Assembly (NCBI RefSeq): GCF_022606355.1
Contig: NZ_JAHHZQ010000001.1
Coordinates: 496,001 to 560,000 of the forward strand
DNA from: Leifsonia shinshuensis
Lineage (GTDB): Bacteria; Actinomycetota; Actinomycetes; Actinomycetales; Microbacteriaceae
Reading direction: 5' to 3'
DNA: 64,000 bases
The translations under genes were made by a program, and so were the position numbers. How positions within the stretch are numbered: position 1 is the first letter of the stretch; each line of letters starts with the position of its first letter. The notes below the pieces were generated by a model. It worked only from the letters and a program-made list of their open reading frames with translations. It had not been told where the DNA came from and ran no database searches. This document shows positions 15,116 through 22,745 of this stretch, piece after piece.

Positions 15116-15913
15116 ATGGTCGAAGCCCAGCACCCGTGGTCCCGCTACGTCGCGATCGGAGATTCGTTCACCGAGGGGATCGGTGACCCCGAGCCGCTGA
15201 GCCCCGGGGGCCACCGCGGGTGGGCCGATCGCGTCGCCGAGGTCCTCAGCGCACAGACGGACGATTTCGCGTACGCGAACCTCGCCGTGCGCGGCAAGCT
15301 CATCAAGCAGATCCTCGACGAGCAGGTGGAGCCGGCGCTCGCGCTCCGGCCCGACCTCATCACGATCTCCGCGGGCGGCAACGACGTCATCCGCCCGGGG
15401 ACCGATCCCGACCAGATCGCGGCGCTCTTCGACCAGGCGGTCAGCCGCCTCAGTGCCGACGGCGCGACGGTGGTCGTCTTCACGGGCGTGGATGTCGGCT
15501 TCTCCCCGGTCTTCCGCGGAATCCGCGGCAAGGTCGCGATCTACAACGAGAACGTGCGGGCAGTAGCGGCTCGCTACGATGCGATCGTGGCCGATCAGTG
15601 GTCGCTCACCGAGATCCAGGATCAGCGCATGTGGGCACCGGATCGCCTCCACCTCGCCCCGCTCGGCCATCACACCGTCGCCCGGATGGTGCTGGCCGCG
15701 CTGAACGTCGAGAACGACCTCCAGCCGCTCGAACCCGAGCCGCTCCCGGCGCGCACCTGGCGACAGGCCCGTGCTGAGGATCTGTCCTGGGCGCGGGAGT
15801 ACCTCGTGCCGTGGGTCGTCCGCCGCATCCGCCACCAGTCGTCCGGCGACCATGTGCTGCCGAAGCGGCCGGACGCAGGGCCGTTCGTCATCGAAGTCGG
15901 TGACCCCGACTGA
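15116..15913 (+). CDS. SGNH/GDSL-family hydrolase
   Basis: 265-residue cytosolic-looking esterase/lipase of the SGNH fold. Block I is VAIGDSFTEG (Ser17 nucleophile), block III is SAGGNDV (oxyanion Asn) and block V is APDRLHLAPLGH (Asp and His). There is no signal peptide. Either the ATG at 15116 or the one at 15101, five codons earlier, could start it; GGAGG lies between them but is too close to 15116 to be ideal. It ends four bases from the end of the convergent acyltransferase gene, whose C-terminus carries related but distinct SGNH domains. Natural substrate unknown. Confidence 0.82.
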   Translation: MVEAQHPWSRYVAIGDSFTEGIGDPEPLSPGGHRGWADRVAEVLSAQTDDFAYANLAVRGKLIKQILDEQVEPALALRPDLITISAGGNDVIRPGTDPDQIAALFDQAVSRLSADGATVVVFTGVDVGFSPVFRGIRGKVAIYNENVRAVAARYDAIVADQWSLTEIQDQRMWAPDRLHLAPLGHHTVARMVLAALNVENDLQPLEPEPLPARTWRQARAEDLSWAREYLVPWVVRRIRHQSSGDHVLPKRPDAGPFVIEVGDPD

Positions 15914-15917
15914 CCGA

Positions 15918-18900
15918 CTAGGAGCCCCCCGATCCGCCGGACAGGTCGACTCCGGCTTGCACGAGGAGTTCGCGAGCCGCTGGAGCGATGTGCCTCGACC
16001 AGGCCTCGGTGATGTGAGTCTTGTCGAACTTGGTCGGGATACCATCTGCGAACGCGGGGCAACTTCCGTTGACGCAGAACAGCGGGCGCGTGTCGACCCA
16101 CACGCCACCGATCGCTGTCACCACCGCGCTATCTGCGGCGTTGAGTTCCTTCCATCGGGTCTGGATTCGCGTCACGCACGCCGCGGGTTCGCTTCGCGGC
16201 GAATAGCACTCACGGATGTCCTTGTCCTCCGGCGGTGTCGCGAACATGACCACCTTTCCGGTGCTCGGCGCGATCTTCTTGAGGTACTCGTCCAAGCCGG
16301 CTTTGTAATCGGCGACCGTCAGGAGTCCACCCTCGACCTTCTTGATCTCCGACGTGAGGTTGGAGACGAAGACGTAGGACGGCTTGGTTGTGCTGATCTC
16401 CTCGATCGCCGCCTCTCTTCGCTTGGGGCACTCGGACCGGTAGGTCTCGTTTCCCGCGGCGATCGAGATGGGGATGAAGGGACAGCCGTACATGCCGAAC
16501 GACGTGATCCGGAGTTTGCCGTTCGAGGAGTCCACGAGCGTACGGAGAAGGGGGAGGTATCCGACGGCCGTCGAATCGCCCACGACCGTGATCGTGACCG
16601 GGGCATCGGCAGCCCCCCAGGTGCACTTCTCGATGCCGGGGTAGACCGGTCCGGCGCACGCGTCGAACTCTGGACTCCGGGCGCCGGCCTCCGGCGAGCC
16701 GAGCGCCGGCGTGGTCTCGGGCCATTCCTTCGCGCCCAGTGCATCGGTCAACGCGGTCTTGATGGCGCCGAGGGCGGCGCCGTCTCCCGGCGGAGCGGCC
16801 GTCGAAGTCGACTCGTCTGCCGGCAGGATGCCTTTCGTCGTGAGGATCTCGCGGACAGCGGGCGCGATGTGTGTCGCGTACTCAGAGGTCAGGTGAACGA
16901 TGTCGGACTTGATGGGAATGCCTCCCGAAAACGCGGGGCAACTCGACTTGACGCAGTACACCACGCGCGTGTCGATCCAGGCGCCGTCGACAGTCTTCGC
17001 CAGTGTCTGGTCGACCTTCGCGCGCGCTTGCCACAGCTCCGGGACCGTCGACAGGCAATCCTGCGGCACAGAGCGAGGCGTGTAGCACTCCTTGACGTCC
17101 TTCTCCACAGGTGGCGGCGGGAGGAAGACGATCGTGCCGACGTTCGGAGCGAGTTGTTCGAGATACGGCTTCATCGCCGCCTCGTACTGCTCCGGAGTCA
17201 CGGCCGCTCCTGTACTGAGCGCCTTGAACGGGAAGTACGTGTTCGTGATGAAGAGCACGTCCGGCTTGAGTGTGCCGATGTTCTCGATCGATGCGAGCTT
17301 TCGCTCCGGACAGGCCTTCTCGAGGTTCTTGTCCGGTGTGGAGGTGGTGATGTCGACGAACGGGCAGCCGAACATTCCCAAAGCTGTGGCTTTCAGTAGA
17401 CCGTTCGAACCCTCCGCCATCGCCCGCAAGGTCGCGACGTACGGGACGGAGGTGGAGTCTCCCACGATCGCCATCGACACCTTGGCGTCGGGAGAGCCCC
17501 AGGTGCACTCGTCCATTCCCGGGTAATCGGGAACGGAACAGGCGGCTGCCGCCTCCGGCGTTTGGTAATCGGTGATGACGCTGTCCATCGATGGGTTGAG
17601 CTCAGGCCACTCCTTCGCACCGACTGCCTTGACGAGTTCGGCCTTGATCGCACTCAGAGCGCCGTTCTGCGGTTGCGAGCTGCCAGAGGTCGGCGAGGCG
17701 GCCTCGGGCGTGTTGTCCCGTGCACCCCGATCCACCACCAGAGCAGCGACGATCGCCACGACAGCGGTGGCGGACACCGCCATCACGGCGATCGACTGAT
17801 ACCGCTGGACTTTGGTTCGCGTCCTGCGACGGTTTCGCTTCGCGGGCTCGAGCCACGAAGAGTGCCGGACCGGCTCTTCGATGAAGCGATACGAGAGCGC
17901 GGCGAGGACGAGCGACAGAGCGATCGACTCCAGCGCGGGGATCGGTGTGTCGTAGCTCGGCGTGCCGCGGGCCAGCTCGGTCACCAGGATGAGCGCGGGA
18001 AAGTGCCACAGATAGAGCGAGTACGAGATGTCCCCGATGTAGCTGAAGAACGGGTTGTCGAGCGGGTTGAGCCAGGTGCGCTTCGGCTTCCAGGGGAAGG
18101 CGATGAATGCGGCGGTGCTGAGCACCGCGAGCGCGGCCCACGGTGCCGGAAAGCCCTGATCGGCCGGGGTGATGACGCTGGCCGTGATCATGCCCGCCAG
18201 TGCGGCCAGTGCGATGAAGGGACGGAGGGCGAGCGGGAGCTTCGAGAACCAGGGCATGCACAGCGCCACCGTCGCTCCCACCGACAGCTCCCAGAGCCGC
18301 GCCGGAGTGATGAAGTACGCCGACCCTTTGTCCGCCTGCGTGAGGTGGAGCGACAGGAAGAACAGCGCCGACGTGATCGCGAAAGTGATGAGACCCGCGA
18401 AAAGGCGCGGCCGTCGTGTTCGCCCGACGAGCAGTGCGATGAGCAGGATCGCCAGCGGCCACACCAGGTAGTACTGCTCCTCCAGGCTCAGCGACCAATA
18501 GTGCTGAAGCGGAGAGGTCTGCGCCCCTTGCGCGAAGTAGTCGGTCGCTTGGGAGGCGAACCGCCAGTTCGAGACGAAGAACAGCGACGCGACCGCATCC
18601 CACACCGTCGACACGAACCGACCGGAGCTGAAGAGCGCCCATGACGCGACCACGGTGGCGATGAGAACCGCCACAGACGCCGGGATCAGTCGACGGATCC
18701 GACGCCGGTAGAAGGCGAGGAACCGGATCCGACCGTTTCGCTCGAACTCGCGATGGAGCACCGACGTCATCAGGAACCCCGAGATGACGAAGAAGATGTC
18801 CACCCCGACGAAGCCGCCCGCCGGCCACTCGAAAGCATGGTTCAGGACCACCAGGCCGACCGCCAGAGCGCGCAGCCCCTGCAGATCGAGGCGCATCGCT

Positions 18901-19013
18901 GTTCGCTGGGCGCCGCCCTTCACAAAGGGCCCACCGTCTGAGTCTCGTCGGACGCGTCGTGCGTCCGCACGGGGCCGACGTTCGGCGTGATGAGATGTTT
19001 CCACAGTGTCCAT
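15918..19013 (-). CDS. Acyltransferase-3 membrane protein with two tandem SGNH domains
   Basis: 1031-residue OafA/YrhL-type protein. Residues about 40-410 form the ten-helix acyltransferase-3 domain (RLDLQGLRALAVGLVVLNHA, FFVISGFLMT, FYRRRIRRLIPAS, HYWSLSLEEQYYLVWP). After a hydrophobic segment and a Ser/Pro-rich linker come two extracytoplasmic SGNH domains about 294 residues apart. Each has GDST (Ser520; Ser814) and a D..H(L/I)T catalytic pair (His707; His1000), plus conserved cysteines. Such enzymes O-acylate cell-surface glycans. Its ATG overlaps the stop of the upstream paralog by one base. The second SGNH domain looks closer to that paralog's domain than to its own first. Family members normally carry one SGNH domain. 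Confidence 0.88.
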   Translation of the reverse strand: MDTVETSHHAERRPRADARRVRRDSDGGPFVKGGAQRTAMRLDLQGLRALAVGLVVLNHAFEWPAGGFVGVDIFFVISGFLMTSVLHREFERNGRIRFLAFYRRRIRRLIPASVAVLIATVVASWALFSSGRFVSTVWDAVASLFFVSNWRFASQATDYFAQGAQTSPLQHYWSLSLEEQYYLVWPLAILLIALLVGRTRRPRLFAGLITFAITSALFFLSLHLTQADKGSAYFITPARLWELSVGATVALCMPWFSKLPLALRPFIALAALAGMITASVITPADQGFPAPWAALAVLSTAAFIAFPWKPKRTWLNPLDNPFFSYIGDISYSLYLWHFPALILVTELARGTPSYDTPIPALESIALSLVLAALSYRFIEEPVRHSSWLEPAKRNRRRTRTKVQRYQSIAVMAVSATAVVAIVAALVVDRGARDNTPEAASPTSGSSQPQNGALSAIKAELVKAVGAKEWPELNPSMDSVITDYQTPEAAAACSVPDYPGMDECTWGSPDAKVSMAIVGDSTSVPYVATLRAMAEGSNGLLKATALGMFGCPFVDITTSTPDKNLEKACPERKLASIENIGTLKPDVLFITNTYFPFKALSTGAAVTPEQYEAAMKPYLEQLAPNVGTIVFLPPPPVEKDVKECYTPRSVPQDCLSTVPELWQARAKVDQTLAKTVDGAWIDTRVVYCVKSSCPAFSGGIPIKSDIVHLTSEYATHIAPAVREILTTKGILPADESTSTAAPPGDGAALGAIKTALTDALGAKEWPETTPALGSPEAGARSPEFDACAGPVYPGIEKCTWGAADAPVTITVVGDSTAVGYLPLLRTLVDSSNGKLRITSFGMYGCPFIPISIAAGNETYRSECPKRREAAIEEISTTKPSYVFVSNLTSEIKKVEGGLLTVADYKAGLDEYLKKIAPSTGKVVMFATPPEDKDIRECYSPRSEPAACVTRIQTRWKELNAADSAVVTAIGGVWVDTRPLFCVNGSCPAFADGIPTKFDKTHITEAWSRHIAPAARELLVQAGVDLSGGSGGS

Positions 19014-21319
19014 CAGCCACGCTCCTGACCGGCGCCGGCGTCGCCCTTCGGGCTCCCGGCGCGGGGCTCGTCGCCATCTGTCGATTCGGGACTCGGCGGG
19101 GGGCTCGCTCCCGCGTCACCGCTCAGGTCGACTCCGGTCTTGGCCAGGAGCTCGACCATGCCGGAGGCCACGTGGCGCGAGTATTCCTCCGTGAGGTGCA
19201 CGACATCGAACTTGGTGGGGATGCCATCGGCGAACGCCGGGCACGAGTTCTTCACGCAGAAGAGCTCTCGAGTGTCGACCCACACCGCGTTCGGTACGGC
19301 TTTCGCCCACTTGGCCTCGGCCGCGGCTCGGAGCTTCCACGTTTCGTCGACGGTCGACACACAATCCTTCGGACTCGATCGGGGCGAGTAGCACTCGCGG
19401 ATGTCCTTGTCGGCCATCGGGGGCGCGACCAGCGCGATCTTGCCTACCGAGGACGAGACTCTCTTGAGGTAGTTGTCCAGTCCCGTCCCGAACTCGCCGA
19501 GCGTCACCCAACCGCCTTCGGGATAATGCGACACTGTGAGATAGGTGTTCGTGACGATGAGCACCGACGGTTTGAGCGCGATGATGTTCTCCACCGCCAG
19601 TTCCTTTCGCTTCGGACAGGCGGCCTGATAGGACGGAATCGCCATCGCGGTCGACACATCGACCCAGGGGCAGCTGTACATGCCCATCGTGGTGACTTTC
19701 AAGCGGCCGTCCGACGCATCGGCCAGTGCACGGAACAGCGGAACGTACGCGATGGAGGTGGAGTCGCCGACGATCGCGACGGAGATCGGCGCATCAGCTG
19801 CACCCCAGGTGCACTGCTCGACTCCCGGATAGACCTCGTTGGCGCAGGCGTCGGTCCCCTTGTCGCGCGAGTATCCGGCAACCACGCTGTCGAATGACGG
19901 GGTCGTCTCCGGCCACTCTTTGGTTTCGAGCGCGGCTCGGAGTTGATCCTGAATCGTCGCGAGCGCGGCGTCGCCACCCGACTCGGAGGTCGCGCCGGGA
20001 GTCGGCCCGGCCTGCGACGGCCCATCCGATCCGGCGTCGGCACCGCCGCGCATCTGCCGGTCGACGACGAAGGTCAGGACCACGGCGACGACGGCGACGA
20101 TCGCCCCAGCGGTGAGCGCGTACGACTGGAGCTTCGAGAGCCGAGCCCCTCGCTTGCGCTTCGTGCTCGGTTCGAGCCACCGTGAGCGTCGGACCGTCTC
20201 CTCGACGAATCGGAACGAGAGCTCCGCCACGACCAGGGTCACCACGATCGAGACCACGGCCGGAACCGGGGTCTTGTCGCCGGGGAGGCCGCGGAAGGCC
20301 TCGGTGATGAGGATCAGCGCGGGGAAGTGCCAGAGGTAGAGCGAGTAGGAGATGTCGCCGAGGTGGGTGAGCACCGGGTTGTCGAGCGGGTTCAGCCAGG
20401 AGCGGCGCGCGGGATGCCATGGGAAGGCGATGAACAGTGCGGTGCTGAGCACGGCGACCAGCGCCCACGGGGCCGGGAAGCCCTGACTGGCGGGGGTGAT
20501 CACCGCTGCCGCGATCATCCCGGCGAGCGAGGCGAGCATGATCATCGGCCGCCAGACTGTGGGGAGGCGGTCGAAGAGCGGCATGCAGAACGCGACCGTC
20601 GCGCCCGCCGAGAGCTCCCAGAGGCGCGCGGGAGTGATGAAGTACGCCGTCGCGATATCGGTCTGCGTGAGCTGCAGGGAGACCAGGAAGAGCCCGGCCG
20701 TGATGACGAGGCTGACCACGGCGGCCGTGACCCGGGGATGGCGGTCCTTGGCGACGAGCAGGGCGATCACCAGGACGGCGAGGGGCCAGACCAGGTAGTA
20801 CTGCTCCTCGAGGCTGAGCGACCAGTAGTGCTGGAGGGGCGACGTCTGCGCGCCCTGCGCGAAGTAGTCCGTCGCCTCGGCCGCGTATCGCCAGTTCGAG
20901 ACGAAGAACAGCGAAGCGATGCCGTCCCAGACCGTCGACACGAACCGGCCGGAGCTGAACAGTGCCCAGGCGCCGATGACGGTGGCGAGGATGACGGTCG
21001 CCGACGCCGGGATGAGGCGACGGATACGACGTCGGTAGAACGCGAAGAAGCGGATGGTCCCCGTGCGTTCGTACTCCCGGTAGAGCAGCGAGGTCATCAG
21101 GAAGCCGGAGATGACGAAGAAGATGTCGACGCCGACGAAGCCGCCGGCCGGCCAGTCGAACGCGTGGTTGAGGATGACCAGCCCGACAGCGAGCGCACGA
21201 AGGCCTTGCAGGTCCATCCGCTTCTTCGTGCGGACGAGCGCTGCGTCGGCGGGGCGCTCGGCCGCTCGGCGGCGCGCACCCGATTCTGCGCGGGTGCGGG
21301 GCTGGGTATCTGACGTCAT
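19013..21319 (-). CDS. Acyltransferase-3 membrane protein with one SGNH domain
   Basis: 768-residue paralog of the following gene. Acyltransferase-3 helices occupy about residues 35-400 (MDLQGLRALAVGLVILNHAF, FFVISGFLMTSLLYREYER, SLSLEEQYYLVWPLAV); one membrane anchor and a low-complexity linker follow; then a single SGNH domain with GDST (Ser520) and DVVHLT (His708). The C-terminus is a Pro/Ser/Asp-rich tail. The predicted role is O-acetylation of an envelope polysaccharide or peptidoglycan, with the membrane domain passing acyl groups outward and the SGNH domain transferring them. GAGG nine bases upstream supports the start. Stop and next start share one base (TGATG). A D,D-carboxypeptidase gene lies upstream in the same direction. 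Confidence 0.88.
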   Translation of the reverse strand: MTSDTQPRTRAESGARRRAAERPADAALVRTKKRMDLQGLRALAVGLVILNHAFDWPAGGFVGVDIFFVISGFLMTSLLYREYERTGTIRFFAFYRRRIRRLIPASATVILATVIGAWALFSSGRFVSTVWDGIASLFFVSNWRYAAEATDYFAQGAQTSPLQHYWSLSLEEQYYLVWPLAVLVIALLVAKDRHPRVTAAVVSLVITAGLFLVSLQLTQTDIATAYFITPARLWELSAGATVAFCMPLFDRLPTVWRPMIMLASLAGMIAAAVITPASQGFPAPWALVAVLSTALFIAFPWHPARRSWLNPLDNPVLTHLGDISYSLYLWHFPALILITEAFRGLPGDKTPVPAVVSIVVTLVVAELSFRFVEETVRRSRWLEPSTKRKRGARLSKLQSYALTAGAIVAVVAVVLTFVVDRQMRGGADAGSDGPSQAGPTPGATSESGGDAALATIQDQLRAALETKEWPETTPSFDSVVAGYSRDKGTDACANEVYPGVEQCTWGAADAPISVAIVGDSTSIAYVPLFRALADASDGRLKVTTMGMYSCPWVDVSTAMAIPSYQAACPKRKELAVENIIALKPSVLIVTNTYLTVSHYPEGGWVTLGEFGTGLDNYLKRVSSSVGKIALVAPPMADKDIRECYSPRSSPKDCVSTVDETWKLRAAAEAKWAKAVPNAVWVDTRELFCVKNSCPAFADGIPTKFDVVHLTEEYSRHVASGMVELLAKTGVDLSGDAGASPPPSPESTDGDEPRAGSPKGDAGAGQERG

Positions 21320-21485
21320 GTATGCGGGCCTCGTCGAGTGCGATGAAGCACCGACGCTAGCGCGGCGATTCGACGTCGATGTGCCCGTCTCAGCCCGCTC
21401 CCGCGGGGCCGTCGGGCGTCACTCCGATGCGGTCACCCCGGCCCTCACCCGCGCAATCATCTGCGCGTGGCGCGCTTCGGGCGTG

Positions 21486-22745
21486 TCAGACTCCGAGCCC
21501 GCCCGGGTGCGCCAGACGCCACCCGAAGCCCGGGTCGGGAACGTCCTTCGCCAGCGCGAGGTCGACCGTCTTCGTCGTCCCGTTGAACGTGAACGTGATG
21601 CGCCCGACCAGGTCGCCCTTGAACCCCGACTGGATCGGGCGCGTCGTGAGGTCCACCTGGATCGGTGTGTCCGACCACACCACGAAGGTCTCACCGCTGG
21701 TGGCGACCAGGTTCGACGAAGCGCCCCACGGCGTCGTGTACGAGCCGAACGCCTGGCCGCTCGTTGCCGCCTCCACCTCGTGGAACCCCGCCTGCATGCT
21801 GGTCAGGAGTCCGGTCACACCGGCCCACAGCGTGTCGTGGTCGGGGGCGCCGAGCACGACGCCGAGCACGCGGACCTTCACCGCGCCGACCGGCACCTCG
21901 GCGGAGAACAGCAGGCAGAAGCCCGCCTCATCGGTGTTGCCGGTCTTGATGCCGTCCACACCGTCCACCCCGAGCAGCGCGTTCGTGTTGTCCTGGGCTC
22001 CCGCGCCGGGCAGCGTCGCGGACTTCTGCGAGACGATGGATGACAGCACCGGAGACGCGAGCACGAGCTTGCCCAGCCCGATCAGGTCTTTGGTCGTGCT
22101 GACGTTGCCGGGGTCGAGCCCGTCCGGCGTGACGACCTTCGTTCCGGAGAATCCCTTGTTCTTGAGCCACGAGTTCGCGGCGGAGACGTACGCGGAGGAC
22201 GACCCGTATGCCCAGTTCGCGAGCGAGATCGCGTAGTTGTTGGCCGACGGCAGCAGCATCGCGGTGAGCGCCTGCTTCTCGGTCATCGAGGTCCCCGCTT
22301 TGACCGGCGCCCAGGATCCGCCGTCGGCGATGACCGTGTTCCAGATGTCGACGTCCTTCTGGGTGAAGGAGATCGAGGGCCCCTCAGAGGAGCCGTCGAG
22401 CGGCTTGGCGTCGAGCACGACGAGGGCGGTGATCGTCTTCGTCATGCTCGCGATCGGCATGCTCGCGTCGCTCCCGTGGTACTCGGTCGCGCCGGGATAG
22501 TCGGGCGCGGTGATCGCCGCCGATCCGTACCCGGGCCAGGCCAGCTGGGCGGCCGCCTGGGTGAGCGCCTTCTCGTGCTGGGTCACCGCGGCCGTGGCGG
22601 GCACCGGCGTGATGATCGAGCCGGCCAGGTAGAGCAGAGCGACGAGCAGCACTCCCCCGACGCCGAAGACCACGAACCGGCGGCGAAGGTAGACCTGCTT
22701 GCGGTTCAGACGGCGCGGCGGATCGGCGAGGACTTGCTGAGCCAC
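21486..22745 (-). CDS. D-alanyl-D-alanine carboxypeptidase (low-molecular-weight PBP)
   Basis: 419-residue serine-type peptidase that would trim the terminal D-Ala from peptidoglycan stem peptides. The penicillin-binding motifs are complete: SMTK (100-103, Ser100 nucleophile), SAN (167-169) and KTG (267-269). A single membrane-spanning segment at residues about 25-45 anchors it facing outward. The start is GTG with no ribosome-binding site and TAGACT six bases upstream, so the mRNA is probably leaderless. The 166 bp to the next gene downstream hold that gene's promoter region and nothing else I can name. Confidence 0.9.
   Translation of the reverse strand: MAQQVLADPPRRLNRKQVYLRRRFVVFGVGGVLLVALLYLAGSIITPVPATAAVTQHEKALTQAAAQLAWPGYGSAAITAPDYPGATEYHGSDASMPIASMTKTITALVVLDAKPLDGSSEGPSISFTQKDVDIWNTVIADGGSWAPVKAGTSMTEKQALTAMLLPSANNYAISLANWAYGSSSAYVSAANSWLKNKGFSGTKVVTPDGLDPGNVSTTKDLIGLGKLVLASPVLSSIVSQKSATLPGAGAQDNTNALLGVDGVDGIKTGNTDEAGFCLLFSAEVPVGAVKVRVLGVVLGAPDHDTLWAGVTGLLTSMQAGFHEVEAATSGQAFGSYTTPWGASSNLVATSGETFVVWSDTPIQVDLTTRPIQSGFKGDLVGRITFTFNGTTKTVDLALAKDVPDPGFGWRLAHPGGLGV

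Follow-up and report, generated by a model that had tools for sequence, protein, structure and literature searches.

A Leifsonia acyltransferase-3 protein with two apparently intact SGNH domains of separate origin

The window analysed here, a stretch of 64,000 nucleotides from Leifsonia shinshuensis (NCBI RefSeq assembly GCF_022606355.1, contig NZ_JAHHZQ010000001.1, positions 496,001 to 560,000), encodes a protein, P0001, that is apparently an acyltransferase-3 (AT3)-SGNH acyltransferase in which a single membrane part bears two intact-looking SGNH domains (SGNH1 and SGNH2), where one is usual. Phylogenetic trees show the two to be of separate origin, most likely different pre-existing cassettes stacked behind one AT3 domain. 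Double-SGNH AT3 proteins are rare, and undescribed in the literature searched: the architectures set out in the relevant passages of a 2020 mBio paper (PMC7448272) are AT3 only, or AT3 with one extracytoplasmic domain, commonly SGNH, and full-text searches, to which subscription literature and InterPro architecture lists were largely closed, returned no paper on a tandem or two-SGNH acyltransferase. The 'additional SGNH domain' mentioned in part of PMC9833829 is the usual single one.

Architecture, active sites and neighbourhood of the double protein

P0001 matched the Pfam model PF01757 once (95.4 bits against a cut-off of 31) and PF19040 twice, in separate stretches (67.2 and 76.1 bits against a cut-off of 27), which bears out its preliminary description as an AT3 protein with two tandem SGNH domains. 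The AT3 domain contained R48-X10-H59, of the R/K-X10-H type in TMH1, and RxxR at residue 104 and elsewhere, motifs as given in passages of PMC7448272 and PMC9558356. Alignment with relatives identified the catalytic sets Ser520/Asp704/His707 in SGNH1 and Ser814/Asp997/His1000 in SGNH2, confirming the earlier claim that both nucleophiles and both D..H pairs are kept; neither of the outcomes named at that stage as contrary evidence, a single merged domain in structure prediction or an active-site replacement, was observed. Blocks II and III, which bear the Gly and Asn of the family and may supply the oxyanion hole, read GMFGC/ITNTY in SGNH1 and GMYGC/VSNLT in SGNH2, at positions that align with those of relatives; OafA and OafB themselves depart from the pattern at these blocks (passage of PMC7448272). 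Each domain has eight Cys residues. In 69 columns at least 90% conserved among 27 single-SGNH relatives (eight distant and six duplicate or broken rows left out), SGNH1 kept 61 residues and SGNH2 60, against 62–69 in the singles, a comparison favouring the singles, from which the columns were defined. An assembly artefact or recent duplication was ruled out, because the two copies are only ~ 42% identical (dS = 0.97 between them) and the same architecture is present in Leifsonia sp. McL0607.

The best NCBIfam model for P0001 was SucT (NF058601; 219.4 bits, best stretch covering model positions 23–609 of 723). Mycobacterial SucT is, like P0001, an actinobacterial AT3 acyltransferase, but the score fell well short of the 1275 bits required of an equivalog.

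A Kyte-Doolittle scan of P0001 found a basic stretch ahead of TMH11 and no segment beyond it reaching the hydropathy threshold of 1.6 (maxima of 1.16 and 1.34 in the SGNH regions). No hydrophobic segment follows residues 405–431, so hydropathy predicts that the two SGNH domains share one side of the membrane, the extracytoplasmic one. Within the AT3 domain, the scan merged or missed several of the ten expected helices, and pLDDT was low in the model, which makes any placing of the SGNH domains relative to AT3 tentative. SGNH2 modelled alone reached a pLDDT of 94.5 and a pTM of 0.91, with the periplasmic domain of OafB (6SE1) as its closest structure; SGNH1 taken from the full-length model likewise matched 6SE1, with identities of 13–15% between OafB and the P0001 SGNH domains in the aligned fold. 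Profile and single-sequence searches of the PDB returned nothing useful, the lone match (E = 0.58) being taken as chance, and a weak PADLOC match to PD-T4-6 (18.7 bits, residues 391–452 around TMH11) was also judged to be chance.

Table 1. Features of the double-SGNH gene and its neighbours, in positions of the window
Feature	Position	Strand	Basis or comparison
AT3-SGNH-SGNH protein P0001, 1031 aa	15918..19013	-	ORF
Acyltransferase-3 domain, residues 43-374	17892..18887	-	Pfam PF01757, motif scan
TMH11, final hydrophobic segment, residues 405-431	17721..17801	-	Kyte-Doolittle scan; model helix 406-430
SGNH1 with N-terminal extension, residues 451-735	16809..17663	-	
Ser520 codon, SGNH1 nucleophile (GDST)	17454..17456	-	
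Asp704..His707 codons, SGNH1 block V	16893..16904	-	
Inter-SGNH linker, residues 736-743	16785..16808	-	Domain limits, linker comparison
SGNH2, residues 744-1025, including an N-terminal extension of its own	15939..16784	-	
Ser814 codon, SGNH2 nucleophile (GDST)	16572..16574	-	
Asp997..His1000 codons, SGNH2 block V	16014..16025	-	
P0002, AT3 with one SGNH, 768 aa, upstream paralogue	19013..21319	-	59% identical to P0001 over AT3-SGNH1 (703 columns)
D-alanyl-D-alanine carboxypeptidase (PF00768), syntenic neighbour	21486..22745	-	Pfam, synteny
GDSL/SGNH hydrolase (PF13472), convergent neighbour	15128..15913 (true start upstream of 15128)	+	Pfam, synteny

The start of P0001 overlaps the stop of the upstream paralogue P0002 by one base (TGATG); this single-SGNH paralogue and the apparent SGNH exchange across the locus are both missing from the preliminary description. 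Gene order (SIR2, TrmH-like, carboxypeptidase, AT3 genes, GDSL, helicase) was kept in six of seven relatives, the slot being occupied by a single AT3 gene in G007 and G010 and by a pair in the other four (G006, G016, G020 and G023); the 16-kb stretch taken from the seventh (G025) yielded none of these flanking genes. The convergent GDSL hydrolase gene, four bases from the double gene, is 93–98% identical in the six syntenic relatives. Between P0002 and the carboxypeptidase gene, a simple scan of positions 21250–21560, a weak test in such DNA, detected neither a promoter nor a terminator. The sole AT3-SGNH gene of the slot in G007 (L143, 7625–9855, and L014) is split over two frames near SGNH block I, reflecting either a degraded copy or a sequencing error.

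Occurrence of double-SGNH proteins

The search for further AT3 proteins of about 1,000 residues with two SGNH domains, suggested in the preliminary description, was productive. The same architecture was found in Leifsonia sp. McL0607 (P0004, 77% identical to P0001; SGNH1 70%, SGNH2 73%), a likeness that fits a single double predating the divergence of the two. At least five doubles in three lineages were recovered from a database of 5.8 billion proteins, each search of which scored only the ~ 7,990 candidates with the most words in common: the window's own protein (entered as P0003), P0004, P0031, P0034 and P0036. In the last four an AT3 domain is likewise followed by two PF19040 stretches, but only P0004 has the pair of SGNH types seen in P0001.

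Matches were obtained in 26 of 28 genomes of the genus, and only that of the window spanned both SGNH domains in one piece; similarly, among 30 loci fetched (out of more matches listed, and with only the AT3 domain seen in about half of them, the distant ones), a two-SGNH ORF was present at the window's own locus only. A scan of 90 loci, 80 from genome contigs and ten picked for long frames, gave 85 ORFs with AT3 and one SGNH domain, none with two and 16 with AT3 but no SGNH match, and a very divergent second domain may escape this count because the SGNH profile was built from Leifsonia relatives. Ten long frames from the family scan (879–1328 aa, stop to stop) had no second SGNH domain by profile, the extra length preceding AT3 in the nine listed. 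Across 396 genomes of the order, with two candidates scored per genome, a single one of the ~ 149 matches listed (E up to 1e-60) aligned past residue 787 of the 1017-residue P0031, and this was again the window's own.

Three long proteins were rejected as doubles. Those of Cnuibacter, P0032 (995 aa) and P0033 (921 aa), owe their length to a low-complexity insert, a long stretch rich in Ala, Pro, Ser and Thr between AT3 and the final hydrophobic stretch ahead of SGNH, while P0035 (Curtobacterium sp. MCBD17_028, 1171 aa) continues from AT3-SGNH into glycosyltransferase domains on the same chain. The genome of the window contained seven PF19040 matches in six genes, and nine other genomes of the genus had zero to three among the matches listed. 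In two genus genomes of 2.6–2.7 Mb (G003 and G027; loci L016 and L018) the AT3-SGNH genes were interrupted by stops and in pieces.

SGNH1 and SGNH2 are different cassettes in an exchanging locus

In SGNH trees (the first with 14 ORFs chosen from the locus scan; a 25-row alignment, A2, that split SGNH1 was left out), the SGNH1 domains of P0001 and P0004 grouped with the single domains of P0007, P0010, P0014, P0015, P0016 and P0019 (support 99/95), the SGNH2 domains with those of P0005 and P0006 (100/100), and the domain of P0002 fell in a third clade. Monophyly of the four SGNH domains of the Leifsonia doubles was rejected (p-AU = 1.1e-7 in AU test, on a tree with seven rows left out and 12 locus rows added by locus id), and internal duplication of one SGNH domain in Leifsonia with it; copying of SGNH1 from the neighbour P0002 was not supported either, given the third-clade position of the latter. 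The Leifsonia double is thus no simple duplication, because its two domains, 41–46% identical to each other in the Leifsonia doubles, belong to different clades and each serves as the sole SGNH domain of related AT3 proteins. The AT3 tree placed the doubles with P0005, P0006, P0014 and P0015 (94/92), which carry SGNH2-type (P0005, P0006) or SGNH1-type (P0014) singles. P0014, from a metagenome, is 71% identical to P0001 over the whole alignment, and AT3 identity to P0001 was 73% for P0002, 86% for a G023 gene and 87.5% for a G016 gene, all three with one SGNH domain and from the same locus. The SGNH1 branch was longer in P0001 than in McL0607 (0.31 vs 0.13), which could reflect relaxed constraint.

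The four SGNH domains of P0031 and P0034 formed one clade (100/99), pointing to internal duplication, and both active sites are kept in these two proteins, as in both Leifsonia doubles. In the distant AT3 protein P0036, the two SGNH stretches have 34% identity; the Ser and the block V His are missing from the first, which retains its Cys pattern. By the trees, the double architecture would have arisen at least twice; P0036, which lies outside the tree rows, would add a third origin if its distance is taken at face value. Loss may also have occurred: P0005 grouped with SGNH2 of P0004 (97/92, and 98/90 in a second tree), its linker shares STSTAAP with the inter-domain linker of P0001, and the P0006 linker resembles the first linker, so that, on these short sequences, the single SGNH2 proteins may descend from a double that lost SGNH1. 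P0006 (locus L013, 619–2850, in G016, Leifsonia sp. TF02-11) is an SGNH2-type single in which the nucleophile is replaced by Ala (GDAT), with Asp and His kept.

Comparison of the locus with relatives suggests that SGNH cassettes move between AT3 chassis and species. In G016, the genes adjoining the slot had 97.8 and 98.4% protein identity to those of the window (dS = 0.29 and 0.34), while identity to P0002 was 94.8% in AT3 (dS = 0.39) and 75.4% in SGNH (dS = 1.09), and identity to P0001 was 87.5% in AT3 (dS = 0.70) and 68.7% in SGNH2 (dS = 0.93); SGNH1 of P0001 had a best match of 46%. Collectively, adjoining genes were 87–98% identical in five relatives, against best matches of 46–75% for the three SGNH domains. 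DNA identity dropped at each AT3/SGNH border and was regained in the next gene in G016, G023, G020 and G006, while G010, with one AT3 gene, gives no comparison over the second. The roughly threefold step in dS inside one gene, even with values near 1 being imprecise, is not expected from selection on amino acids and points to replacement. Tree conflicts were also seen, as SGNH data rejected three groups supported by AT3: P0023, P0024, P0008, P0018, L010 and L035 (p-AU = 2.7e-5); P0009, L034, P0016 and P0019 (p-AU = 5e-102); and the doubles with P0005, P0006, P0014 and P0015 (p-AU = 0.006), the groups having been picked after both trees were seen and 12 distant, duplicate or broken rows left out. 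As a control, two further AT3-SGNH loci of the window's genome were compared, where SGNH identity was 62–63% against 77–80% for AT3 (G023 and G010) and 72% against 76% (G010). Faster SGNH change, 4 to 18 points below AT3, is therefore partly general, which weakens any claim of hypervariability; exchange is argued instead by the intragenic dS jump, the missing domain and the tree conflicts.

Proposed function of the two domains

We assign a probability of about 45% to the reading, drawn from sequence comparison, that one AT3 channel serves two SGNH transferases with different acceptor preferences, leading to two modifications. By analogy with OafA/OafB and OatA, the AT3 domain would move an acyl group from cytoplasmic acyl-CoA across the membrane, and either SGNH domain, outside the membrane past the last TMH, would take it onto its Ser as an acyl-enzyme. 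The SGNH domain would then pass it to a cell-envelope glycan, presumably a part of the cell wall. SGNH1 and SGNH2, being of different types, would most likely prefer different acceptors or positions, and the two SGNH lids on one AT3 domain would presumably alternate.

Salmonella OafA and OafB are AT3-SGNH O-antigen acetyltransferases with one SGNH domain, as opposed to two in P0001, and their acceptor is the LPS O-antigen, a structure not known from Gram-positive actinobacteria. For OafA, passages of PMC7448272 and PMC9558356 report that the SGNH Ser and His are needed and propose that AT3 carries acetyl across the membrane for transfer by SGNH; for OafB, part of PMC9833829 models the single SGNH domain as a lid that swings on a hinge over AT3, like that of a 'pedal bin', and the AT3-to-SGNH handover is still described as unclear in a passage of PMC9558356. 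The two-acceptor model is preferred because the SGNH extension is said, in a section of PMC7448272, to confer acceptor specificity in OafA/OafB, and each SGNH domain of P0001 has an N-terminal extension of its own. That the domains differ in type, each being the sole SGNH elsewhere, would fit the transfer to two acceptors or positions suggested in the preliminary description. SucT carries one SGNH domain. According to a part of PMC10503756, succinylation of both AG and LAM depends on this single AT3 protein, and two acceptors need not, therefore, mean two SGNH domains.

It is also conceivable, though on the unlikely side, that AT3 supplies only one SGNH domain, the second being a surplus cassette remaining from locus exchange, chemically competent but idle. 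Singles of both types sit on closely related AT3 domains, the P0005 and P0006 linkers look as if SGNH2 singles came from doubles losing SGNH1, and the first domain of P0036 is dead; that domain and the lost Ser of P0006 imply that one active SGNH domain, or none, can persist and that retention is not guaranteed. Preservation of both active sites in the two Leifsonia doubles, P0031 and P0034 speaks against such idleness. If the two domains instead acted identically on a shared acceptor, the second would add reach, capacity or avidity for a wall-distant glycan. The internal duplication in P0031/P0034 indicates that two like domains are tolerated, but the difference in type between the Leifsonia domains, their low mutual identity and the grouping of each with singles make this improbable for P0001.

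A division of labour in which one domain transfers and the other removes the acyl group, as an editing esterase, would draw on the O-acetylesterase activity that SGNH domains of AT3-SGNH proteins are said to have besides their transfer role (in a passage of PMC9558356). We regard it as highly improbable: the trees, which comprised AT3-fused SGNH domains only, gave no support for a transferase/esterase split, both domains nest within AT3-fused clades, an argument weakened by the absence of stand-alone esterases from those trees, and a separate GDSL hydrolase adjoins the double gene. The least probable arrangement weighed is a relay in which the acyl group goes from AT3 to SGNH1 and on to SGNH2, the domain that reaches the acceptor. 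The serial order of the domains on one chain would fit, and part of PMC10302187 proposes that the acetylation of cellulose and alginate runs through an intermediary O-acetyltransferase and then a terminal one, but a type 2 SGNH domain directly follows a closely related AT3 domain in P0005, and the first domain of P0036 lacks a nucleophile.

Returning to the preferred reading of two transferases on one channel, a broader and tentative possibility is that the carboxypeptidase-linked slot in Leifsonia is a surface-diversification locus, in which a conserved AT3 chassis would receive SGNH specificity cassettes exchanged by interspecies recombination. On this view, doubles would have originated on three or more occasions, through cassette stacking and through internal duplication. 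The lineage of the window would have stacked two such cassettes, so that one acyl channel writes two surface marks, possibly under phage or host pressure. That SGNH segments appear to be swapped inside an otherwise conserved neighbourhood points to such a locus in a Gram-positive actinobacterium. P0001, together with singles of each type on related AT3 domains, provides ready-made constructs for the study of AT3-to-SGNH transfer and acceptor specificity.
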